Shown here piece after piece: positions 4,217 through 46,658 of a stretch of DNA of 64,000 nucleotides. Made by a program: the position numbers and the translations under genes. The DNA is from Providencia rettgeri. Its GTDB lineage: Bacteria > Pseudomonadota > Gammaproteobacteria > Enterobacterales > Enterobacteriaceae. The stretch is from the NCBI RefSeq assembly GCF_041075285.1, contig NZ_CP163512.1, positions 682,001-746,000 on the forward strand, read 5' to 3'. The notes under the pieces are model-generated. The model worked only from the letters and a program-made list of their open reading frames with translations, was not told the origin of the DNA and searched no databases. How positions within the stretch are numbered: the stretch's first letter is position 1; the number at the start of each line of letters is the position of its first letter.

Positions 4217-6814
4217 GTGCTAGAAGAATACCGTAAGCACGTAGCCGAGCGTGCCGCTCAAGGGATTGTCCCTAAGCCATTAGATGCGTCACAAGTAGCT
4301 GCACTGGTAGAGTTACTGAAAAACCCACCCAAAGGTGAAGAAGATTTCTTGTTAGACCTGCTGACCAACCGCGTTCCCCCTGGTGTTGATGAAGCAGCGT
4401 ACGTAAAAGCTGGATTTTTAGCCGCTATCGCAAAAGGCGAAACTTCCTCCCCTCTGATCTCCCCTGAAAAAGCCATTGAACTGTTAGGTACTATGCAGGG
4501 TGGATATAATATCCATGCACTGATTGAAGCGCTGGATGATGCTAAATTAGCACCTATCGCCGCAAAAGCCCTTTCCCACACTTTATTAATGTTTGATAAC
4601 TTCTATGATGTAGAAGAAAAAGCGAAGGCGGGAAATGTACACGCGAAGCAAGTTATTGAATCATGGGCTAACGCTGATTGGTTCAAAGAACGTCCTGAAT
4701 TAGCAGAAAAAATGACCGTTACGGTCTTTAAAGTGACCGGTGAAACGAATACTGATGACTTATCACCTGCGCCAGATGCATGGTCACGTCCAGATATTCC
4801 TCTGCATGCGCTAGCAATGTTGAAAAACCCGCGTGACGGTATCGTGCCGGATGAGGCGGGCAGTATCGGTCCAATCAAACAAATCGAAGCATTGAGTAAA
4901 AAAGGCTTCCCACTGGCTTATGTTGGTGATGTGGTGGGGACTGGTTCTTCGCGTAAATCTGCGACTAACTCCGTGTTGTGGTTTATGGGTGATGATATCC
5001 CATTTGTACCTAATAAACGCGGCGGCGGTGTGGTATTAGGCGGTAAAATCGCGCCTATCTTCTTTAATACTATGGAAGATGCGGGGGCACTGCCAATCGA
5101 AGTGGATGTGTCTAAACTGAATATGGGTGATGTGATTGATATCTATCCATTTAAAGGTGAAGTCCGTAACCACGAAACCAATGAATTACTCGAAACGTTT
5201 GAATTAAAAACAGATGTATTGATTGATGAAGTACGTGCAGGCGGTCGTATTCCATTGATTATCGGTCGTGGTTTAACCAGCAAAGCGCGTGAATCATTAG
5301 GTTTAGAAGCGACAGATGTGTTCCGTCATGCGAAATCCGTTGCACAAAGCAATCGTGGCTTCTCATTGGCACAAAAAATAGTTGGTCGCGCTTGTGGTCG
5401 CCCAGGTATTCGTCCTGGCGAGTATTGTGAGCCGAAAATGACTTCAGTCGGTTCGCAAGATACGACTGGGCCAATGACACGTGATGAGTTAAAAGACTTA
5501 GCGTGCTTAGGCTTCTCTGCAGATTTAGTAATGCAGTCATTCTGCCATACAGCAGCCTATCCAAAACCCGTTGACGTAACCACTCACCACACATTGCCAG
5601 ACTTTATTATGAATCGCGGTGGTGTTTCTCTGCGTCCGGGTGATGGGATTATCCACTCTTGGTTAAACCGTATGTTGCTACCGGATACCGTTGGTACTGG
5701 CGGTGACTCTCATACGCGTTTCCCAATTGGTATTTCATTCCCTGCGGGTTCAGGTCTGGTTGCATTCGCTGCGGCTACAGGGGTTATGCCTCTGGATATG
5801 CCTGAATCTGTACTAGTTCGCTTTAAAGGCGAAATGCAGCCGGGTATCACATTACGTGATCTTGTCCATGCCATCCCACTGTATGCAATTAAAGATGGTC
5901 TGCTGACAGTTGAGAAAAAAGGTAAGAAAAATATTTTCTCTGGCCGTATTTTAGAAATTGAAGGTTTGCCTGAGCTAAAAGTAGAACAAGCGTTTGAACT
6001 GGCAGATGCCTCTGCTGAGCGTTCAGCGGCAGGTTGCACGATCAAACTGGATAAAGCCCCTATCATTGAATATCTGCAATCGAATATCGTCCTGTTAAAA
6101 TGGATGATCGCAGAAGGCTACGGTGATCGTCGTACTATCGAACGTCGTATTAAGGGCATGGAAAATTGGTTAGCGGATCCTCAACTGCTTGAAGGTGATG
6201 CAGATGCGGAATACGCGGCAGTGATTGAAATTGACCTCAATGAAATCAAAGAGCCCATTTTATGTGCACCAAATGACCCTGATGATGCGCGTTTGCTGTC
6301 TGATGTGCAAAACGAGAAAATCGATGAAGTGTTTATCGGTTCTTGTATGACTAACATCGGCCATTTCCGTGCCGCAGGTAAGCTGTTGGATTCTCATAAA
6401 GGCCAGTTACCAACACGTTTATGGGTTGCGCCACCAACCAAGATGGATGCAGCACAATTAACCGAAGAGGGTTATTACAGCGTATTTGGTAAGAGTGGGG
6501 CGCGAATTGAAGTGCCGGGCTGTTCGCTCTGTATGGGTAACCAAGCTCGCGTCGCTGATGGTGCAACGGTTGTTTCAACGTCAACGCGTAACTTCCCTAA
6601 CCGTTTAGGTACAGGGGCGAATGTGTATCTGGCATCGGCAGAGTTAGCTGCTGTTGCATCACTATTAGGTCGTTTACCTACGCCTGCTGAATACCTGCAA
6701 TATATGGATAAAGTGGACGAAACCGCGGCAGATACCTACCGCTATCTGAACTTTGACCAGTTATCACAATATACCGAAAAAGCGGATGGCGTGATTTTCC
6801 AAACCGCAGTATAA
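4217..6814 (+). CDS. acnB: Bifunctional aconitate hydratase B / 2-methylisocitrate dehydratase
   Basis: This is the main TCA-cycle aconitase, interconverting citrate and isocitrate. AcnB can also hydrate 2-methyl-cis-aconitate in the methylcitrate pathway, whose prpBCD genes lie at 51.5-55.1 kb here. The 865 residues equal the E. coli length and the sequence is near-collinear throughout: N-terminal HEAT-like domain, swivel domain ([11 protein letters not shown]), then the catalytic core. The [4Fe-4S] cysteines are in IGSCMTNIG and GCSLCMGN. The start is GTG, 6 bases after GAGGAG, giving the family N-terminus [15 protein letters not shown] strong terminator follows. In E. coli yacL comes next; here a DUF1266 gene and a broken VOC gene intervene. 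Confidence 0.98.
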
Positions 6815-6846
6815 AGCTTAACTAACAGCGAGTTTTATGTGTATAC

Positions 6847-6880
6847 AACCCCAGTAATGATGTTATTGCTGGGGTTTTTT
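6847..6880 (+). terminator. Rho-independent terminator after acnB
   Basis: AACCCCAG pairs with CTGGGGTT, extended by TAAT/ATTG bases, and is followed by six T. It lies 32 bases past the acnB stop. Confidence 0.9.
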
Positions 6881-6927
6881 ACGTATTTTAGTTTATGATT
6901 TAACCCGCGTTTATTTAATATAAATTT

Positions 6928-7845
6928 TTAACTATTTAAAGATTTAGGGAGTAAGCGGTAAGATATGCGAGCTTCTATATCGGGTAACGAAACGGGTGTT
7001 CCATCTTCATAAGTAAAGCCTAACCCTGCAACAGCTCGGGTAAATGAATCTAGGTTAAGGCTTGGTAAATCCATTTCCCAATTTTCTTGAGTGGTTGGGA
7101 AGCGCTCATCCGCCAAGATTTCTTTAATTTTATCAGCAAAGTCCTGCTGATCTTCCGTCCAAGTCGTATCCGTTGCAGCCCAAAACCAGCGAGTATTGAC
7201 AAAGCTCATCCAAAAATCGTCCCAGCTACTATAGATACGCTTGATCATTGATGTTGTGATCAATGACCAATCTTGAGCTTCTTGCTTAGTGATATAACCT
7301 GCCCGGCAGCCATCGAGGCATAATTTACTAAAGCGGGTAAAGTCCCACGCGATATATTTTACGTCGCGGATCCCATTGATATTATTAATCATCATTTCAA
7401 CTTGCCACAGTTGTTCCCGCTTATTTTCTTCACTATCTTCTGAATTTTTTATCTCTTGAGTGAGTACCTCTAACTCATATTCATCGGCATATGCCACACG
7501 ATCGCGAAGAGTATAGTAAGCGTCTGTATGACCAGAGGTGATGAGTATATATAATTGATAAATTAAGTCGTAACGATTAGTGATCCCCCATGCTTGTTTT
7601 AAACCACCATCATGCGGGCCAGGTTCATAATCATTGTAGGCGTGCCCATTAAAGCAGGAATAGGGTAAATTTAAAAATAGCCCCCATTCTTCGGGTTGTA
7701 GTGGTTTCACCTCTAATGAATCGAGTTCGCTGGTTGAGTATAGGGAAGGAGGGCTTTGTTCTCGTTTCTTTCTCGTTTTTTTATTGCTAAATACAGCCCA
7801 AGTTAGACCGAGAACAGCACCTACGGCGATAGTGATGACTGACAT
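6928..7845 (-). CDS. DUF1266 family protein
   Basis: This 305-residue protein has a short N-terminal hydrophobic segment (ITIAVGAVLGLTWAVFS) followed by basic residues, which suggests a membrane anchor with the bulk in the cytoplasm. The C-terminal two thirds carry the DUF1266 pattern: AWGITNRYDLIYQL, a central YIAWDFTRFSKLCLDGCRAGYI, the acidic-aromatic SWDDFWMSFVNTRWFW, and a closing WEMDLPSL segment. E. coli proteins of the YbeU/YbeR group share this domain; no biochemical function is established that I know of. It is convergent with acnB, has a long AT-rich upstream region, and is absent from this position in E. coli, so it is an accessory insertion. Confidence 0.8.
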   Translation of the reverse strand: MSVITIAVGAVLGLTWAVFSNKKTRKKREQSPPSLYSTSELDSLEVKPLQPEEWGLFLNLPYSCFNGHAYNDYEPGPHDGGLKQAWGITNRYDLIYQLYILITSGHTDAYYTLRDRVAYADEYELEVLTQEIKNSEDSEENKREQLWQVEMMINNINGIRDVKYIAWDFTRFSKLCLDGCRAGYITKQEAQDWSLITTSMIKRIYSSWDDFWMSFVNTRWFWAATDTTWTEDQQDFADKIKEILADERFPTTQENWEMDLPSLNLDSFTRAVAGLGFTYEDGTPVSLPDIEARISYRLLPKSLNS

Positions 7846-8007
7846 ATGACTCTCATTAATTTTTCAAATTCAAATATAGAAATCTTTCAAATAATTATCT
7901 GAATAACTATTTTTCATTTGAGTTGTAATTTACATCTTAAGTGAAATAAAAGCGAATATATCGGAAGTATTTTGTTTTTTGTCGCTTTAATAAAGCCATC
8001 ATTGACT

Positions 8008-16100: not shown

Positions 16101-16282
16101 GGGGTCTCCAAGATGCCGTTGTAGACTGTAACCCTTGAACCCTTGGTTCAAGGTGAACGCAGTTTAGCAACCTTTAGGCTTCCTGAACGGATCAGGCATG
16201 CTCACCAGCGCAATAACCACATTCTATTTAGTTGAAATATCGGCTCAGGGGACTCGCCCACTCACGCGCATCTCAGAGAAAT
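16101..16282 (-). ncRNA. ssrS: 6S RNA
   Basis: Read on the minus strand, this 182-nt stretch aligns from memory along its length with E. coli 6S RNA: it opens with ATTTCTCTGAGATG, carries the AGTCCCCTGAGCCGATATTT block and GGTGAGCATGC, then CACCTTGAACCAAGGGTTC, and closes with GGCATCTTGGAGACCCC. The two ends pair into the terminal stem and the middle forms the open-promoter-like bubble. 6S RNA sequesters sigma-70 RNA polymerase in stationary phase. The position between zapA and fau is the conserved one. Ends are estimated by comparison and may be off by a few bases. Confidence 0.95.
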
Positions 16283-38101: not shown

Positions 38102-39084
38102 ATCGTTGTCTAATGATTTTTTCTAGATCATAAGTTAAATTATTAAAAAATGGCACTGCATTGGCGACATTTTGTGGGGGGATCTCGCTATGTATCTCAC
38201 ATAAGTTGGCGTTGTGTTTTAATTATTGGTGAAACAATTCGACTGCATTATCAGACGTTCATAAAATAGACAAAAAAACAGCAACCCGCTAGGTGTATCA
38301 ATAACACCTATTATGTTCAGTGCTCCCTTCTTTATTCAATCCGACTGCTAACGGTATAAATCAGCTATCTAATAGCAAAATGATATGTATTAAATTATTT
38401 TTTTCTACGTGTTCGCTAATTAGTAAATAATGGACTATATAATAAGGTTGAAAATTAATTTGAGTTACGAATGGTATCAATTTAGTATAAGTAATTGTGC
38501 CTGAAAGTTGGTATGATCACTTAGGTTGCTTTTATGATTACCTTAACTCTGTTTTATTGCAGACTATTGAATCTAAATGATGTTTTCAAGGTGTTGCTGA
38601 TAATGAATGATTAGGTCTAATGCCTTAATCATAAAGTGGGTGAGCATATTTAGACATTTTTAGAACAGCATATTTTTGCGAAAAAGAGCAAAAAACACTT
38701 TTTTGGAGTGTTTAAGGTTATTTAATTTGTTAGCAAATGTTTCCATGTGAAGACAAAAAAGAAACTTTGGCAAACTGTTATTGAACTGTTGAATTTATGG
38801 TTACATTAACCAGTAAAATAATGTTTAGATAACAGAATATAATTAATTTCCACCTTAAACGTGTTAATTTATCACTGACTTAGTGTATTAATAAGAATAA
38901 GCTCATAAAAATGACGAAAGGGTAGCGATAAAATAAAATTAAAACTAAAATTATTGTAATCATAAAATTATGAGATGACTCTATTTCTACATTCGGACTT
39001 ATAGAAAATAGCTAGTTTTTAGCTTACACTAGGTTTCTTGGACATCATTATAATAGCGAAGAAAAGTACTGGTAAGGTAACCAT
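38102..39084. other. Gene-free AT-rich stretch upstream of the lipoprotein operon
   Basis: About 980 bases hold no open frame that I can support, no RNA gene I recognise, and no repeat other than the end of copy 2. A possible promoter for the following operon is TTACAC (39024-39029) with TATAAT (39049-39054) at a long 19-base spacing, 30 bases before the lipoprotein ATG. Its length and AT content would fit a heavily regulated, possibly H-NS-silenced locus; this is inference. Confidence 0.5.
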
Positions 39085-39648
39085 ATGTTTTTAAAAAATA
39101 AATTTTATGTTGCATCTTTGCTTATAGCAGGTACGGCTCTTCTTTCCGGCTGTACATTTGGCTCAGACACATACAATACAGCAGCACCTAATACAGCAAC
39201 ACCGAATACCCCAAGTAAACAAACAGTAAATGCCAATACGACTCCTGTTGCCGAACAACCCGTTGTAAATGCATATCAAGCTGATGATTCATATCCTGAA
39301 TCTCAAAAAGTTTTAAATAGCGCTATTAATCGCACACCAATAGCGACAACAACTTATGGGCAAAGTGGCGCTGAACAACAAACATTTGCTCACCTAAATA
39401 CGTGTGTTAAGGAACTCAATGCACTAAAAACACTTTCACCCAAAGATTACAATCGTTTGGTAGGTTCATTTAAGGAAGTGAGTGAAATCAACCGCCTCTA
39501 CAGAGAAGTTGAAGGCACTGCTAGCCCTGATACCATTGAATTACTACAAATGGCGATCGAGTCTAAAACGAAAGTACTCTGTGCAAAAGTTCGCTATAAC
39601 TCAGTATTGTCTACCGAATCAACATTGAAGAAAATTAGTGGATTATGA
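39085..39648 (+). CDS. Predicted lipoprotein, partner of the giant coiled-coil protein
   Basis: A 187-residue exported lipoprotein: signal peptide with lipobox LLSGC, making Cys23 the lipidated residue, followed by Thr (no Asp at +2), which favours the outer membrane. Residues 25-80 are a low-complexity Asn/Thr/Pro linker. The remaining half is helical, with FAHLNTCVKELNAL and LCAKVRYNSVL carrying two cysteines that could form a disulfide. I do not recognise the family. Its stop overlaps the next start (ATGA), so translation of the two genes is coupled and their products probably work together. The ribosome-binding site is AAGGT. Confidence 0.8.
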   Translation: MFLKNKFYVASLLIAGTALLSGCTFGSDTYNTAAPNTATPNTPSKQTVNANTTPVAEQPVVNAYQADDSYPESQKVLNSAINRTPIATTTYGQSGAEQQTFAHLNTCVKELNALKTLSPKDYNRLVGSFKEVSEINRLYREVEGTASPDTIELLQMAIESKTKVLCAKVRYNSVLSTESTLKKISGL

Positions 39649-42600
39649 GAATAAACCTTAGGCTTTGTGTGTCGCTGGCACTTTTTACGACATTTTTTAG
39701 TCATGCTCCGAAAGCAGAGAAATTTAATAGCGTTATTGATGATTTTGATACTTACCTTCAATTAGAAAGAGAAGGCAAAGTAAAAGAGCAAAAGCAACAA
39801 CAACAGCCGGTGAATACACAAGCTCAAGGTTACGATATTTTCTCTTCATTATCGACGGTGCCTGCGCCCAAGGAAAAACAAAAATCTGCGGCGGCGAATA
39901 AAGGAGCCAGAGGTAAAACGACAAGTAAAGGACGGTCGGGGGCTGCATCGGCAAAAACGGCTGATGCGGCTAAAACGACGCCAATAGAAGAACCAGGAAA
40001 AAACACTTTTTCTGATGTCTGTGTGGTGGCAACAGATAGCCCATCTGCACCAATTTTACTTTCATCCTACCCTTACTTTTTTCAAAGTAATCAATGGAGC
40101 CCTGAGTATTTAGCAAGAGACTTTGCTAAATATCAGTTAGTTCTTGATCCTCTTGGGTTGTATGCCTCTAAATTTGCCAGACCATCTGGGATAGATGCTT
40201 CTGCTTATCTTGAACAGCTTGCAAAATTAATTGAACGCCAGCAACTGACGAGTTTGTATCAGTTTGGTATAGCACAGGGTGTTGGCCAACTTATTGGTTA
40301 CAATAATCTGTTAAATGACCAGCAACTGGTTGCTGAGCTTATTAATCACAATAAGAGTATTGCACAATTAACGCATACGATTACAGAAAAAGAATTTGAA
40401 ATTAATAAACTTAATGAAGATATTAAGAAAAATAAAAATCAAATCACACAATTACAAGCACAGCTAAATTCATCAACTGATGATCAAACGTTAATTGAAA
40501 CATTAAATCATAAACTTGCGGAAGCAGAAAAAACGATTGAGCAAAAACAGAATAACTTAACACAGCTCAGTCAAGAAAATCAGCAGACACAAGAAACGAT
40601 CGCTCAACTTGAAAAACAATTAAATGAAAGTGCTATTGAGCAATCTAAAATAAAGCAACAACTAGCTGAGAAAGAGCAACAGTATGCGGCTGCCAATTTG
40701 AAGATTGAGCAGTTAACAGCAGATATTGCTAAATTAGAGTTGGATGCGAAAAAACAATTACAACTTGTTGGAAACACTGATGAACAAATGAAATTGGTGG
40801 CCACTGAGTTGTTACAGCAAAAAGAATTACTCAAACAGAAAGAAGCTGAACTTGCTACGGCAAAAAACGAAAAAGATGATGTCCAATCGGCACTTGCTAC
40901 ACAGCAAGCGAGTGCGAAACAACTAGAACAACAAAATCAGCAATTATTGGCTCAATTAGCAGAAAAAGAGCAGTTAGCTGAAAAAATACAGGCTTCTTTA
41001 GCAGAAAAAACGGCTGAGGCTGAGCAAAAGGTTGCTTTAGAGAAAGCGTTAAAAGATGCACAAATTGCACAAGAGACGCTAACTTCCCAATTAGCGTCCA
41101 GCGAAAAGCAACAAGCGGAGCTACAAGCTAAATTAGCGCAGCATGAGCAGAATTACGCGGCAGCAAAAGCTCAGTTGCAGCAAGCGAATGCGGATCTACA
41201 ACAACTGCGTACCGATGTTGAAAAACAGACGGCGCTGTTAAACCAAGCCAGTGATGAACAAGTTAAAACCATCACGGCGGAGCTAAATAAACACATTGTC
41301 TTGCTCAAGCAAAAAGAAAATGAGTTGAAAAAAGCCGAAGCGGCGAGCCAATCAACACATGATGCGTTAGCTCAGCAGCAAGCGGTCGCCAAAGAGCTTG
41401 AGCAGAAAAATCAGCAGCTTGCTCAACAGCTCAGCGAAAAAACGAAGCAGGCAGATAAAATCCAAGCCTCGTTAGCGGAACAAACGGCGAAAGCGGCGGA
41501 TAAAGCGGCACTGGAAACGGAATTAGCGGCGGCTAAAAAACAGTTGGCGGAGCATGAAACGCAGCAAAATACGCTAGCCAAGCAACTCGCGTCCAGCGAA
41601 AAGCAACAAGCGGAGCTACAAGCTAAATTAGCGCAGCATGAGCAGAATTACGCGGCAGCAAAAGCTCAGTTGCAGCAAGCGAATGCGGATCTACAACAAC
41701 TGCGTACCGATGTTGAAAAACAGACGGCGCTGTTAAACCAAGCCAGTGATGAACAAGTTAAAACCATCACGGCGGAGCTAAATAAACACATTGTCTTGCT
41801 CAAGCAAAAAGAAAATGAGTTGAAAAAAGCCGAAGCGGCGAGCCAATCAACACATGATGCGTTAGCTCAGCAGCAAGCAGTCGCCAAAGAGCTTGAGCAG
41901 AAAAATCAGCAGCTTGCTCAACAGCTCAGCGAAAAAACGAAGCAGGCAGATAAAATCCAAGCCTCGTTAGCGGAACAAACGGCGAAAGCGGCGGATAAAG
42001 CGGCACTGGAAACGGAATTAGCGGCGGCTAAAAAACAGTTGGCGGAGCATGAAACGCAGCAAAATACGCTAGCCAAGCAACTCGCGTCCAGCGAAAAGCA
42101 GCAAGCGGAGCTACAAGCTAAATTAGCGCAACATGAGCAAAATTACGCGGCAGCAAAAGCTCAGTTGCAGCAAGCGAATGCGGATCTACAACAACTGCGT
42201 ACCGATGTTGAAAAACAGACGGCGCTGTTACACCAAGCCAGTGATGAGCAAGTCAAAACCATCACAGCGGATCTGAATAAACAAATAGCCTTGCTCAAGC
42301 AAAAAGAAAATGAGTTGAAAAAAGCCGAAGCGGCGAGCCAATCAACACGGGATGCGTTAGCTCAGCAGCAAGCGGTCGCCAAAGAGCTTGAGCAGAAAAA
42401 TCAGCAGCTTGCTCAACAGCTCAGCGAAAAAGCGAAGCAGGCTGATAAAATCCAAGCCTCACTAGTGGAACAAACGGCGAAAGTGGCGGATAAAGCGGCA
42501 CTGGAAGCGGAATTAGCAGCGGCTAAAAAACAGTTGGCGGAGCATGAAACGCAGCAAAATACGCTCGCCAAACAACTTGCGTCCAGCGAAAAGCAGCAAG

Positions 42601-44675
42601 CGGAGCTACAAGCTAAATTAGCGCAGCATGAGCAAAATTACGCGGCAGCAAAAGCTCAGTTACAGCAAGCGAATGCGGATCTACAACAACTGCGTACCGA
42701 TGTTGAAAAACAGACGGCGCTGTTACACCAAGCCAGTGATGAGCAAGTCAAAACCATCACGGCGGATCTGAATAAACAAATAGCCTTGCTCAAGCAAAAA
42801 GAAAATGAGTTGAAAAAAGCCGAAGCGGCGAGCCAATCAACACGGGATGCGTTAGCTCAGCAGCAAGCGGTCGCCAAAGAGCTTGAGCAGAAAAATCAGC
42901 AGCTTGCTCAACAGCTCAGCGAAAAAGCGAAGCAGGCTGATAAGATCCAAGCCTCACTAGCGGAACAAACGGCGAAAGCGGCGGATAAAGCGGCACTGGA
43001 AACGGAATTAGCGGCGGCTAAAAAACAGTTGGCGGATCATGAAACGCTACAAAATACGCTAGCCAAGCAACTCGCGTCCAGCGAAAAGCAGCAAGCGGAG
43101 CTACAAGCTAAATTAGCGCAGCATGAGCAAAATTACGCGGCAGCAAAAGCCCAGTTGCAGCAAGCGAATGCGGATCTACAACAACTGCGTACCGATGTTG
43201 AAAAACAGACGGCGCTGTTACACCAAGCCAGTGATGAGCAAGTCAAAACCATCACAGCGGATCTGAATAAACAAATAGCCTTGCTCAAGCAAAAAGAAAA
43301 TGAGTTGAAAAAAGCCGAAGCGGCGAGCCAATCAACACGGGATGCGTTAGCTCAGCAGCAAGCGGTTGCCAAAGAGCTTGAGCAGAAAAATCAGCAGCTT
43401 GCTCAACAACTCAGCGAAAAAACGAAGCAGGCAGATAAAATCCAAGCATCACTTGTTGAGCAATCAGCTAAAGTTGCACAAAAAATTACGTTAGAGTCTG
43501 AGCTTGCTACGGCGAAGCAGCAATTGCAAGAGTATCAAGTCGCTCAAAATACACTCTCTAAGCAATATACAGAAAGCCAAAAACAGCAACAGCAACTTCA
43601 GGCCACATTGGCTCAAAATGAGCAAAATTATGCTGCTGCCCAGAAACAGTTAGCACAAGCTAATGCCAGTTTGCAAAAATTACAGAAAGATGTTGAAAAG
43701 CAAACGGCATTAATTGGGCAAGCGAGTGAGCAGCAAGTCAAAGAATTGACAGCAGATTTAAATAAACAACTGGCACTGTTGAAGCAAAAAGAAGCGGCTT
43801 TAGCTAAGCTTGATTCGGAGAAAAAAGGAATTCAAGATGCGCTTTCTGCACAAGAGAGTGAAAAGAAAAAACTTGAATTGCAAAATACGCAATTTGTTAA
43901 ACAGATAAAAGAGCAAGAAACGCAAATCAGTAAGCTTGAAACTGATATTGCAGCTAAAGTGAAAAAACAAACCGAGGTTGAGCTACAACTTGCGGATGCA
44001 AATAAACAAATTAGTGCCTTGAAATTAGATGCCCAAAAGTTGGCGTCTGCAACGAAAGCACAACAGGAACTTGTTTTAGCACAAGCGCAATTGAAAAAAT
44101 TACAGGCTGAGTTAGACGCACAGAAATCATTCTCAAGTGATGATGCGCTTAAGTCACAAATTATGGACTTAAATCGTCGAATTACGTTATTACAAGACGA
44201 AAACAATGCTCTTAAAGCGAAAGGCAAAACGGGTTCAAGTGCTGGACTAGCGGGTCGTGTGCCGCCAAGTAAAGACGCTAAAGTCGTTGCACAAGAAAAT
44301 GCCAAGAAAAATCAGAAGATAATTCAAGATATCACGGCGCAAAAATACAGTAAGTTGGATAATAATACGTATTATAAAATTATTCAGCGCGGTACGCCGA
44401 TAAAAGATGTTAAAAAGAAAGACATTACATTTATTATGAGGGAGCAGTTAACCGATGGAACGGTAACGGTAATGTATACCGATAAAAACCCGGTCACGCT
44501 ACCTTATAATGAGTTACCAACACCACTAAATTCGTTTGTTGAACGTGCTGGAGAAGGTGGGATGGTTAAGGTATATATTAAACCTGAAGGTGGTTATGGG
44601 GTTGAGGGGATACCCGGTGAAATACCGCCAAACTCTATGTCTATCATTGACTTGAAGATTATGAATGTGAAATAG
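39645..44675 (+). CDS. Giant exported coiled-coil protein with C-terminal FKBP-like domain
   Basis: A 1676-residue protein with an N-terminal signal peptide (to about residue 24). Residues 50-125 are low-complexity, rich in Lys, Ala and Thr. Residues about 130-235 are globular and include LYQFGIAQGVGQLIGYNNLL, which resembles the N-terminal dimerisation segment of FkpA/Mip. Residues about 240-1520 are an almost unbroken coiled coil of A, Q, K, E and L. The last 100 residues (from about 1575) resemble an FKBP prolyl isomerase: LTDGTVTVMYTDKNPVTLPY, GGMVKVYIKPEGGYGVEGIP and IPPNSMSIIDLKI. Several residues of the FKBP pocket seem lost. The coil contains five near-identical 165-residue repeats and diverged ones at both edges. 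Start and operon partner: ATGA overlap with the lipoprotein. Function unknown; a periplasmic or surface spacer/scaffold is a reasonable guess. Confidence 0.85.
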   Translation: MRINLRLCVSLALFTTFFSHAPKAEKFNSVIDDFDTYLQLEREGKVKEQKQQQQPVNTQAQGYDIFSSLSTVPAPKEKQKSAAANKGARGKTTSKGRSGAASAKTADAAKTTPIEEPGKNTFSDVCVVATDSPSAPILLSSYPYFFQSNQWSPEYLARDFAKYQLVLDPLGLYASKFARPSGIDASAYLEQLAKLIERQQLTSLYQFGIAQGVGQLIGYNNLLNDQQLVAELINHNKSIAQLTHTITEKEFEINKLNEDIKKNKNQITQLQAQLNSSTDDQTLIETLNHKLAEAEKTIEQKQNNLTQLSQENQQTQETIAQLEKQLNESAIEQSKIKQQLAEKEQQYAAANLKIEQLTADIAKLELDAKKQLQLVGNTDEQMKLVATELLQQKELLKQKEAELATAKNEKDDVQSALATQQASAKQLEQQNQQLLAQLAEKEQLAEKIQASLAEKTAEAEQKVALEKALKDAQIAQETLTSQLASSEKQQAELQAKLAQHEQNYAAAKAQLQQANADLQQLRTDVEKQTALLNQASDEQVKTITAELNKHIVLLKQKENELKKAEAASQSTHDALAQQQAVAKELEQKNQQLAQQLSEKTKQADKIQASLAEQTAKAADKAALETELAAAKKQLAEHETQQNTLAKQLASSEKQQAELQAKLAQHEQNYAAAKAQLQQANADLQQLRTDVEKQTALLNQASDEQVKTITAELNKHIVLLKQKENELKKAEAASQSTHDALAQQQAVAKELEQKNQQLAQQLSEKTKQADKIQASLAEQTAKAADKAALETELAAAKKQLAEHETQQNTLAKQLASSEKQQAELQAKLAQHEQNYAAAKAQLQQANADLQQLRTDVEKQTALLHQASDEQVKTITADLNKQIALLKQKENELKKAEAASQSTRDALAQQQAVAKELEQKNQQLAQQLSEKAKQADKIQASLVEQTAKVADKAALEAELAAAKKQLAEHETQQNTLAKQLASSEKQQAELQAKLAQHEQNYAAAKAQLQQANADLQQLRTDVEKQTALLHQASDEQVKTITADLNKQIALLKQKENELKKAEAASQSTRDALAQQQAVAKELEQKNQQLAQQLSEKAKQADKIQASLAEQTAKAADKAALETELAAAKKQLADHETLQNTLAKQLASSEKQQAELQAKLAQHEQNYAAAKAQLQQANADLQQLRTDVEKQTALLHQASDEQVKTITADLNKQIALLKQKENELKKAEAASQSTRDALAQQQAVAKELEQKNQQLAQQLSEKTKQADKIQASLVEQSAKVAQKITLESELATAKQQLQEYQVAQNTLSKQYTESQKQQQQLQATLAQNEQNYAAAQKQLAQANASLQKLQKDVEKQTALIGQASEQQVKELTADLNKQLALLKQKEAALAKLDSEKKGIQDALSAQESEKKKLELQNTQFVKQIKEQETQISKLETDIAAKVKKQTEVELQLADANKQISALKLDAQKLASATKAQQELVLAQAQLKKLQAELDAQKSFSSDDALKSQIMDLNRRITLLQDENNALKAKGKTGSSAGLAGRVPPSKDAKVVAQENAKKNQKIIQDITAQKYSKLDNNTYYKIIQRGTPIKDVKKKDITFIMREQLTDGTVTVMYTDKNPVTLPYNELPTPLNSFVERAGEGGMVKVYIKPEGGYGVEGIPGEIPPNSMSIIDLKIMNVK
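41100..43574 (+). repeat. Five tandem 495-bp coding repeats
   Basis: The SSEKQQAELQAKLAQHEQ unit begins at 41100, 41595, 42090, 42585 and 43080, exactly 495 bp (165 codons) apart. A diverged unit starts in register at 43575 and a more diverged one lies before 41100 at a spacing of 471 bp. Units 1 and 2 differ at a single base that I can see (41384 G, 41879 A). Units 3-5 share the variant HQASDEQVKTITADLNKQIA. The pattern shows recent unit duplication. Confidence 0.95.
44370..44672 (+). other. FKBP-like domain at the end of the coiled-coil protein
   Basis: YYKIIQRGTPIKDVKKKDIT, DGTVTVMY and PEGGYGVEGIP...IPPNSM...IDLKI align by eye with the FkpA C-terminal domain (YQVVEAGKG, DGKEFD, PELAYG, IPPNSTLVFDVEL). 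The FD pair and the pocket Trp of active FKBPs are not found at their places; the Tyr before Gly is kept. Likely a non-catalytic or weakly catalytic binding domain. Confidence 0.65.
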
Positions 44676-44699
44676 CGAAAAGTCAGTTTAGGTTCTTCA

Positions 44700-44737
44700 A
44701 AAGGGCAATTTGTCATTCAGGCTGATTGCCTTTTTTT
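44700..44737 (+). terminator. Rho-independent terminator of the lipoprotein/coiled-coil operon
   Basis: AAAGGGCAAT pairs with ATTGCCTTT and continues into seven T, 25 bases past the stop. Confidence 0.85.
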
Positions 44738-44880: not shown

Positions 44881-45702
44881 TTAAGCAGTTACTCTTGATT
44901 TACTCGGGGTATAGCCAAATCGCTTGCGGTAGCTCTGAGTAAAATAAGATTGACTTGAGAAGCCTGCTTCCATCGATATTTCAACAATACTCATTGCAGT
45001 ATTTACCAATAATTGGTGTGCATACATAATCCGTTTTTCGCTGATCCATGCACGTGGTGACGTGGCGTAAACACTATGAAATAATTCTTTAAAGGTTGTT
45101 AGCCCCATACCAAAACTACGAGCGAATTCACTTAAATTCCACTCTTTCAAATAGTTATTTTCCATAAAAATTTGTAAACGTTGGGCTTGGCGGTTGCTTA
45201 ATTGCTTAAAGTTAGAAAGTAATATTGCACCTTGTTCACTATAGGATAATAACAGTAATAGTTCGCTGATGCGTAATGATACGATAGCGTCTGGGTAATC
45301 ATGAGTGATAATCGCATTTAAGCTATCTTGGATATTTTCAATTAAAGGATATGACGTAAATTTGATGATATCGGATGCGGTGTCTTCAAACCGTTCGATT
45401 TCACTTAACTGTGAGCCATGAACAGTCATAAACTCGCGTAAGAAGTTATCGTCTAAACTGACCCAAAGTAACTGACAATCTGTTGCAAGATCTGATGATT
45501 GAAATGAATAAGAGCCTTGTTTGTGGTATAAAATATCCCCTTCATTTAAAACTTGTGCACTTGCTGGCGTCTCTAACAATAAAGTACCTTTTTCGACAAT
45601 AATAATGCCTTTAGATGTTAAATCGATAATGGTATGTTGCGTATCACTATCGATAGTCATCTTTCGAATCACTTGCTGGTTTAAATTGCTGTTGAATTGC
45701 AT
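44881..45702 (-). CDS. AraC-family regulator, ExsA-like
   Basis: A 273-residue transcription factor with an N-terminal cupin-like regulatory domain (GIIIVEKGTLLLETPASAQV) and a C-terminal AraC DNA-binding domain with two helix-turn-helices. The latter closely resembles type III secretion activators ExsA/VirF (Yersinia)/MxiE: LSEFARSFGMGLTTFKELF, SPRAWISEKRIMYAHQLL, SIVEISMEAGFSSQSYFTQS and FGYTPSKSR. The start is taken as ATG at 45702, eight bases after AGGTG; a GTG three codons earlier overlaps that site. No type III secretion structural genes lie in the window, so it is either an orphan or acts at a distance. Nearly 1 kb of AT-rich DNA lies upstream. Confidence 0.9.
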   Translation of the reverse strand: MQFNSNLNQQVIRKMTIDSDTQHTIIDLTSKGIIIVEKGTLLLETPASAQVLNEGDILYHKQGSYSFQSSDLATDCQLLWVSLDDNFLREFMTVHGSQLSEIERFEDTASDIIKFTSYPLIENIQDSLNAIITHDYPDAIVSLRISELLLLLSYSEQGAILLSNFKQLSNRQAQRLQIFMENNYLKEWNLSEFARSFGMGLTTFKELFHSVYATSPRAWISEKRIMYAHQLLVNTAMSIVEISMEAGFSSQSYFTQSYRKRFGYTPSKSRVTA

Positions 45703-46658
45703 GGTAGTCACCTAAATAATCACATTCATACGATAAAAAAAACAGTATTAAGATTTAATGTCATAAAATGAAAATTTATTGATATAAAAAATAGACATTT
45801 CTTGTATGGTTGAAATTATATAAATCGATTATTTATGTGTCATTTTGTAATTCTAAATATAAATAAATGTTTCAAAATGTAGTTTTTACGAGTTATTTGT
45901 GACTTATGCTCGGTTATTTCGATATTTTTTATATGGCTATTTTATTATATTCTGATGTATTGCTGTTTGGTTGGTTTTTTATGCTGAGTTTATTATTGGT
46001 GTTGGTTGTAAATTTTTTTTGTTTTTTTACACATTATTGGTGTTTATTTTTGTTGATCTAACACGATCATCATTTTTAGTGTAGTTATCGGTTTTATTAC
46101 TGTGTTAATAATTGTGATAATATTCGTAAAAAATATTAATTATAAATAATTCTTATGTTTTATATAATTATTGAATTAAGTTATTTGTTTTTTTTATCTT
46201 TTTAATAAAATAATTTTATCAAGAAGGCAATTAATGCCTTTAAAATGAGATTTATGTCTCGCTTTTTTATTGATAGGCAGTAGTTATGGTTTTAATAGGT
46301 AATATAAATATAGATTTTGGTAATTAGTTATTTTGGGTTACTATTTTTTATCTGAGCGTTTCTTAATCATGAATAGTAAGAGTTACTCAGATAGCGTTAT
46401 TGAAGGCTAAACACCACCTGTAAATAGCAAAATAGTAAATTTTATAAAAATGCTAATAAAACAGTTAGATATTTATAAATGTCTATTTGGTGTGTTGCAT
46501 TGAATGAATAAAGCTTTCTTATATGTAAGGATATGCATGCCAAGTGAAAAGCGGTTGAAACTCAAAATCAAAGCTATTTAAGGCGACTGTAAGGAAACAA
46601 AAGAAGGGCTTATTGCTGAAGTCGCCTATTGACGTGTATTGATAGGGGCAATTCAATT
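45703..46658. other. Gene-free, very AT-rich stretch upstream of the ExsA-like gene
   Basis: No frame or RNA gene can be supported. Small hairpins are visible, for example AAGGCA/TGCCTT at 46224-46240 and GAGA/TCTC followed by six T at about 46247-46268, which could end an unseen short + strand transcript. The base composition stands out from the coding blocks on either side. Confidence 0.5.

Follow-up and report, generated by a model that had tools for sequence, protein, structure and literature searches.

A lipoprotein gene overlapping a coiled-coil, FKBP-like gene in Providencia rettgeri: a candidate accessory module for surface adhesins

What might a small lipoprotein and a very long exported coiled coil, encoded by two overlapping genes next to lysS, do in Providencia rettgeri? 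The pair lies in a 64,000-nucleotide stretch of the genome (contig NZ_CP163512.1, positions 682,001 to 746,000 of the forward strand; hereafter the window), and its second gene, which we call FK, encodes a protein with a degenerate FKBP end. Our answer, which we favour tentatively and at well below even chances, is that the pair represents, in Providencia, an accessory module that serves surface adhesins and is widespread among enterobacteria; in this module, a lipoprotein of the outer membrane would work together with a tethered, dead holdase of the FkpA type. The comparisons reported here establish gene coupling, family membership, FkpA origin, catalytic residue loss and adhesin linkage, and from these we infer a mechanism that is worded conditionally below.

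A conserved overlapping gene pair

The two open reading frames (ORFs) described in the original prediction were recovered at the same positions, including their overlap by ATGA. In the Providencia loci listed, the pair lies 3' of lysS, and prfB-lysS is still nearby in locus L087 (genome G174) and locus L088 (genus g107). The lipoprotein was present in all 24 Providencia genomes, and an FK ORF of at least 300 amino acids was found in 20 of the 24 loci, with lengths from 1058 to 1903 amino acids; in 17 of these 20, the overlap with the lipoprotein gene is exactly 4 nucleotides. Five of the 20 are imperfect, three of them containing N stretches (L034, L049 and L051), one beginning inside the gene (L033) and one being a fragment (L041). 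Loci L039 and L046 hold short FK pieces only, and L048 and L050 stop near a contig end. FK is split or reduced in at least three of the 24 Providencia loci (L039, L041, which carries an insertion sequence, and L046), and this, together with the missing start in L033, would suit a decayed FkpA paralogue whose repeats grow by recombination without any selected function. We regard such a neutral explanation as very improbable, given that the lipoprotein is kept in every Providencia genome and that the coupling as well as both ends are conserved over large divergence. Within L041 (genome G011), the FK gene is interrupted by a transposase-like ORF of 399 amino acids (6472-7671), which recurs near a plasmid-borne autotransporter in L058 (2255-3454).

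Is the pair found beyond Providencia? A lipoprotein profile matched 115 of 392 Enterobacteriaceae genomes, five of them from Providencia, and 58 of 154 genera. Besides the 24 Providencia loci, 86 loci were compared, namely 80 sites hand-picked among the matches listed (mostly one or a few per genus) and six stretches from a first search, three of which are in the Providencia genome G011 but carry a distant lipoprotein type. The FK gene was present in 53 of these 86 loci (L118 and L119 overlap, so one FK gene is counted twice) and absent from 33. Outside the Providencia lysS loci, 50 FK genes reach 300 amino acids or more, and the overlap with the lipoprotein gene is exactly 4 nucleotides in 34 and 1 nucleotide in two; the lipoprotein gene lies less than 50 nucleotides away in four more, less than 300 nucleotides away in six and farther off in two, and the last two have none upstream. 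The original prediction had named as its refuting case two genes that never occur together; the lipoprotein was present in 45 (43, plus two by a wider profile) of the 50 non-Providencia genomes that have a coil-containing FK match at E<1e-55, these 50 being the 52 listed minus two whose match was FkpA. With a query made from fimbrial-type FKs, the gene was found in Serratia, Erwinia, Pantoea, Enterobacillus, Pluralibacter, Trabulsiella, Pragia, Limnobaculum and Entomohabitans, and the family also has short members, for example of 375-462 amino acids. Genome G188 has a YacC-type gene immediately 5' of the pair.

The lipoprotein bears the lipobox LLSGC, and FK a probable Sec signal peptide; both signals were judged by eye, and they agree with the earlier claim that the two proteins look exported. 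Only three residues, all of them Cys and one of them that of the lipobox, are invariant among 97 aligned family members, and a profile from 85 family rows, none of them from the Providencia lysS locus, matched the window lipoprotein at E 6e-23. PF27278 is a precomputed annotation on every lipoprotein homologue returned (32/32 in one search and 76/76 in another); it was not among the matches of a Pfam scan of the window proteins. At position +2, which was readable in 89 of the 97 lipoproteins (the regular expression missed the lipobox of the other eight), Asp never occurred and Glu occurred once. With its lipobox Cys and a +2 residue other than Asp, the protein has the sequence marks of an outer-membrane lipoprotein, and its sorting to that membrane is predicted. 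A comparison with PDB entries gave best matches that span the signal peptide and linker, whereas matches to the domain reached E 0.24 or worse.

FkpA ancestry and a long coil

What kind of protein is coupled to this lipoprotein? FkpA/Mip-like parts had been proposed for both ends of FK, and the proposal held for the C-terminus, which is FKBP_C-like, and was not borne out for the N-terminus: when the first 280 residues were compared, profile against profile, with the FKBP_N plus FKBP_C family, the coil alone was matched and no FKBP_N similarity was seen. The Pfam FKBP_C model matched the window C-terminus at E 0.0018, below the Pfam cut-off, and a profile built without Providencia matched it at E 1.9e-6 (with a search space set to one million). 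The FK C-terminal family profile in turn matched FkpA (PDB 1q6u) at E 5.6e-52, and all three FK relatives scanned carry FKBP_N followed by FKBP_C, both above cut-off, on the C-terminal side of the coil. At the level of sequence, these matches establish the FK family as a descendant of FkpA that has added a coil and lost catalytic residues. FK candidates in genomes G302 and G423 were rejected, the matches there being FkpA itself, beside a slyD-like gene.

The loss of catalytic residues was read from one MAFFT alignment with FkpA of 46 FK members, which are the window FK and 45 of 50 fetched C-termini (five near-duplicates were excluded). In all 46 members, the active-site positions Y26, F36, D37, V55, I56, W59 and F99, in a numbering that we take to be that of FKBP12, are replaced, the I56 position being Pro in every one; Y82 is retained in 44 of the 46. 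Since seven of eight active-site positions are replaced, FK is a pseudo-enzyme by sequence, and its C-terminal domain is predicted to be catalytically dead.

The coil, which had been put at about 1280 residues, was found to comprise about 1300 Pro-free residues, though not in an unbroken register. The hydrophobic period is 3.48-3.54 in 165-residue windows between FK residues 250 and 1515; the whole coil peaks at 3.44, and the heptad register is therefore broken somewhere. Repeat units 1 and 2 in the central part of the coil are 99.8% identical in DNA and other pairs 86-97%, which indicates that recent duplication is at work. In Providencia at large, the units measure 165 amino acids in most loci, 102 in several and 89 in one N-masked locus, and in the 20 FK ORFs, the five imperfect ones included, the longest run of residues free of Pro measures 726-1568, compared with a median of 229 in 50 others.

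Coil length, as the most variable trait, together with the long FK ORFs of Providencia, would suit a scaffold, an explanation that we rank second and consider rather unlikely. Under it, the coil would bear load as a filament or spacer along the side of the outer membrane that faces the periplasm, with the lipoprotein holding it there, and the FKBP end would dock or cap, with no client being folded. If Providencia is taken alone, the extreme coil length fits this explanation equally well; moreover, each of the 17 Providencia FK ORFs with an intact N-terminus has exactly one Cys beyond its signal region, and this residue could lock a dimer. However, the short family members are too short for long scaffolds, and the FkpA ancestry as well as the usher linkage reported below suggest contact with secreted substrates. 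As to the lipoprotein-anchored scaffold originally put forward, the conserved overlapping pair on which it was based stands, and the scaffold itself is retained as a possibility.

Linkage to adhesin genes and a proposed role

An usher gene was found within about 9 kb in 22 of the 53 FK loci (stretches of up to 19 kb), on the same strand in 20 of these 22, against 0.040 expected per locus; this expectation was obtained per 19-kb locus from at least 510 usher matches in 262.7 Mb, with 56 genomes concerned, and is hence slightly low. Ushers were also found in two loci without FK. Plasmids from E. coli, E. albertii and Salmonella carry an FK gene inside a fimbrial operon, and one FK gene of this plasmid type is rare in complete E. 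coli genomes (2/5426). Among the 33 loci without FK, 14 (14 of the 86 overall) carry an inverse autotransporter gene 3' of the lipoprotein gene on the same strand, within 340 nucleotides in 11, against 0.0084 expected per locus; all 14 barrels were confirmed by PF11924. When the lipoprotein tree was labelled by linkage to FK or to an autotransporter, both labels were clustered (none of 500 shuffles gave as low a value), and neither label forms one clade (8 and 7 changes). Going beyond the original prediction, the comparisons show a wide family that is linked to fimbriae, with a lipoprotein linked also to inverse autotransporters and an FKBP domain that lacks catalytic residues.

Several side observations were made at these loci. 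Eight of the 14 loci with an autotransporter have two lipoprotein genes. One stands on either side of the barrel gene in L124, L145, L148 and L153; the two form a tandem in L164; and in L058, L059 and L089 both are found upstream of the barrel gene. A usher gene adjoins FK in L228, L229, L230 and L232, where the lipoprotein gene was undetected in the stretch. In K. pneumoniae (NZ_OP378649.1; L170, 116-1333), an FK relative annotated as FKBP lies directly 5' of speE-speD, with no usher annotated in 10 kb. Between the fimbrial genes and the pair, L175 carries a PglL/Wzy-type O-oligosaccharyltransferase-like gene (6250-7986; domains were scanned in this locus only), and by similarity such a gene is also present in L106, L111, L112, L120, L132, L133, L135 and L180; pilins, or the low-complexity linker of FK, might thus be glycosylated.

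Could FK itself be exported past the outer membrane, through the usher or by another route, to form a fibre or coat that the lipoprotein anchors at the surface? FK genes do lie within fimbrial operons beside minor-subunit and adhesin genes, and the repeats vary between species; on this reading, their changes in length would be of the kind typical of exposed proteins. A surface location nevertheless appears distinctly unlikely, as FkpA is periplasmic, Pfam scans list no outer-membrane export domain in FK, and outer-membrane lipoproteins face the periplasm by default.

In the tethered-holdase reading that we prefer, sorting would place the lipoprotein in the outer membrane, on its inner leaflet, where the C-terminal domain of the lipoprotein with the Cys pair would dock the N-terminal motif of FK, an anchoring for which gene coupling is the evidence. 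The low-complexity linker and the coil would then act as a tether, the coil pairing the FKBP heads as a dimer at its far end. These heads might serve as a non-catalytic holdase that binds adhesin subunits (pilins or autotransporter passengers) and presents them at the outer-membrane assembly site; isomerase-independent chaperone activity is reportedly claimed for FkpA in the title of one paper. In Providencia, the targets of the pair would be chaperone-usher systems at other sites, reached in trans; the coil, grown long by repeat amplification, would have to run along the envelope and not across it. A review reports that FkpA binds the autotransporter EspP (PMC3297439).

A number of points weigh against this role. 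Gene linkage alone is no proof of a chaperone role, and 31 of the 53 FK loci show no usher. All 14 ushers above cut-off in the host genome lie more than 300 kb from the locus, so that any adhesin role there must act in trans, and the inverse autotransporter domain (IAT_beta) is absent from this genome. At least eight FK genes have no lipoprotein detected in their stretch (L222, L224, L225, L227, L228, L229, L230 and L232), L120 likewise has none detected, and L144 and L167-L169 carry the lipoprotein on the other side of FK. Among the 14 loci with an autotransporter, three are close copies of one another within a single genome (G011), and binomial figures overstate significance because the loci were hand-picked and come from related genomes. 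Neither end of the window FK has a recognisable FKBP_N dimer domain by Pfam or profile comparison, although the FKBP_N columns of the family profile align over the end of the window coil, where a remnant is possible. From the literature, the review cited above lists SurA, Skp and DegP for intimin, and FkpA is not among them (PMC3297439), and one report states that the action of FkpA on colicin M requires peptidyl-prolyl isomerase activity (PMC2615193).

Taken together, it seems plausible, at somewhat less than even chances, that the pair represents a so far undescribed module of the enterobacterial (Enterobacterales) envelope, at times plasmid-borne, in which a pilot-like lipoprotein and a coil-tethered pseudo-FkpA serve chaperone-usher fimbriae. 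Inverse autotransporters would also recruit the lipoprotein, so that two unrelated adhesin pathways would share one accessory family, and in Providencia the tether would exceed 1000 residues. Both chaperone-usher fimbriae and inverse autotransporters are believed to depend on general periplasmic factors, to which the fimbriae add a dedicated chaperone. If the module exists as proposed, a tethered non-catalytic FkpA relative and a lipoprotein family would be a shared component of the fimbrial and autotransporter routes, and a periplasmic enzyme would have been turned into a binding domain on a coil whose length shifts by repeat amplification.

Control elements, neighbouring genes and known systems

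The features of the locus are collected in Table 1. The conserved upstream region that includes the operator-like block is kept in 15 aligned Providencia loci (of 24) and is weaker but recognisable in L087. With up to three mismatches allowed, the block gave a single match per genome in five of six genomes and none in the sixth (G246), and the reversed-pattern control gave none; as for a genome-wide regulon, the host genome yielded one site only. A promoter scan listed no consensus promoter for the lipoprotein gene on the plus strand near 39049. The terminator claimed earlier was borne out by an intrinsic hairpin, which the consensus terminator scan, covering loops of 3-8 only, does not list.

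Table 1 Features of the lipoprotein-FK locus (window coordinates, except for the last row)
Feature	Position	Strand	Remarks
Operator-like block ATAGAAAATAGCTAGTTTTTAGCTTACACTAGG	39001..39033	+	part of a conserved upstream region of ~120 bp
TATAAT, -10-like hexamer, good -35 absent	39049..39054	+	read from sequence; present in most rows of the upstream alignment
Lipoprotein gene	39085..39648	+	187 aa, PF27278 family; lipobox Cys23, Thr at +2, Cys107, Cys166
FK gene	39645..44675	+	exported protein of 1676 aa; coiled coil, then a degenerate FKBP end
Probable Sec signal peptide, FK residues 1-24	39645..39716	+	by inspection; aligned N-termini
FK N-terminal region, residues 25-218	39717..40298	+	short conserved motif FNx(V/T)IxDFDxY; stretch of low complexity; Cys126 as the one Cys
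FK coiled coil, residues 219-1526	40299..44222	+	Pro 0, Gly 3; local heptad periodicity
Tandem array, 495-bp (165-aa) units, 4.8 copies	41094..43453	+	central part of FK coil
FKBP_C-like domain, ~residues 1571-1676	44355..44672	+	catalytic residues replaced
Intrinsic terminator hairpin with U tract	44699..44735	+	-17.6 kcal/mol, z -3.2
AraC-type regulator gene, ExsA_N domain, convergent neighbour	44881..45711	-	PF22200 E 7.5e-28
ExsD-like genes, g107	L088 5283-6134; G129:C34:3816-3974; G320:C16:77187-77357; G383:C4:97271-97429		within 4 kb of lipoprotein gene

The AraC-type gene that converges on the pair is a candidate regulator of it, and an AraC-type ORF of similar kind adjoins FK in most Providencia loci listed. 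An ExsD-like anti-activator gene (PF16806) is located near an ExsA-type AraC gene and the pair in all four g107 genomes; no ExsD was found in the 24 Providencia genomes, and genome G174 gave a weak match on a different contig. A LuxR-type gene lies near the pair in 30 of the 183 loci scanned (some places were counted twice), and in L172 (9807-10472) it overlaps FK by 4 nucleotides. Such neighbours, and an operator-like block with a single site, would suit an assembly sensor, with the pair detecting adhesin subunits that stay unassembled in the periplasm and signalling to a neighbouring regulator of the LuxR or ExsA/ExsD type. We give this explanation only a slim chance, since no inner-membrane signalling component was seen, regulator genes are common beside fimbriae, and ExsD is missing from Providencia. 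Elsewhere in the window, 6S RNA lies at 16101-16282 on the minus strand, the sole Rfam match in the window at gathering cut-offs.

How does the pair compare with known systems? In agreement with the claim that it is undescribed, searches of one open-access library of papers found no description of the lipoprotein and FK as a system, and term searches of the available text of three papers on fimbriae or autotransporters (PMC3419637, PMC3559732 and PMC6714894) returned nothing on the pair. With SMC/Rad50-type proteins, FK shares coil composition only: kinship was rejected, as the NCBIfam coil matches are far below cut-offs and represent a composition artefact, and no ATPase domain was listed. 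Like the PulS/OutS pilotins (PF09691, including YacC), the lipoprotein is a small export-targeted protein with two spaced Cys; its assignment to that family was rejected at an hhalign probability of 0.5%. The closest likeness is to FkpA of E. coli (PDB 1q6u) and Mip, whose FKBP_N and FKBP_C domains recur at the C-terminal end of the three FK relatives scanned. In contrast to FkpA and Mip, FK has a long coil in front, a replaced active site and a lipoprotein partner gene, and in Providencia it has no recognisable FKBP_N.

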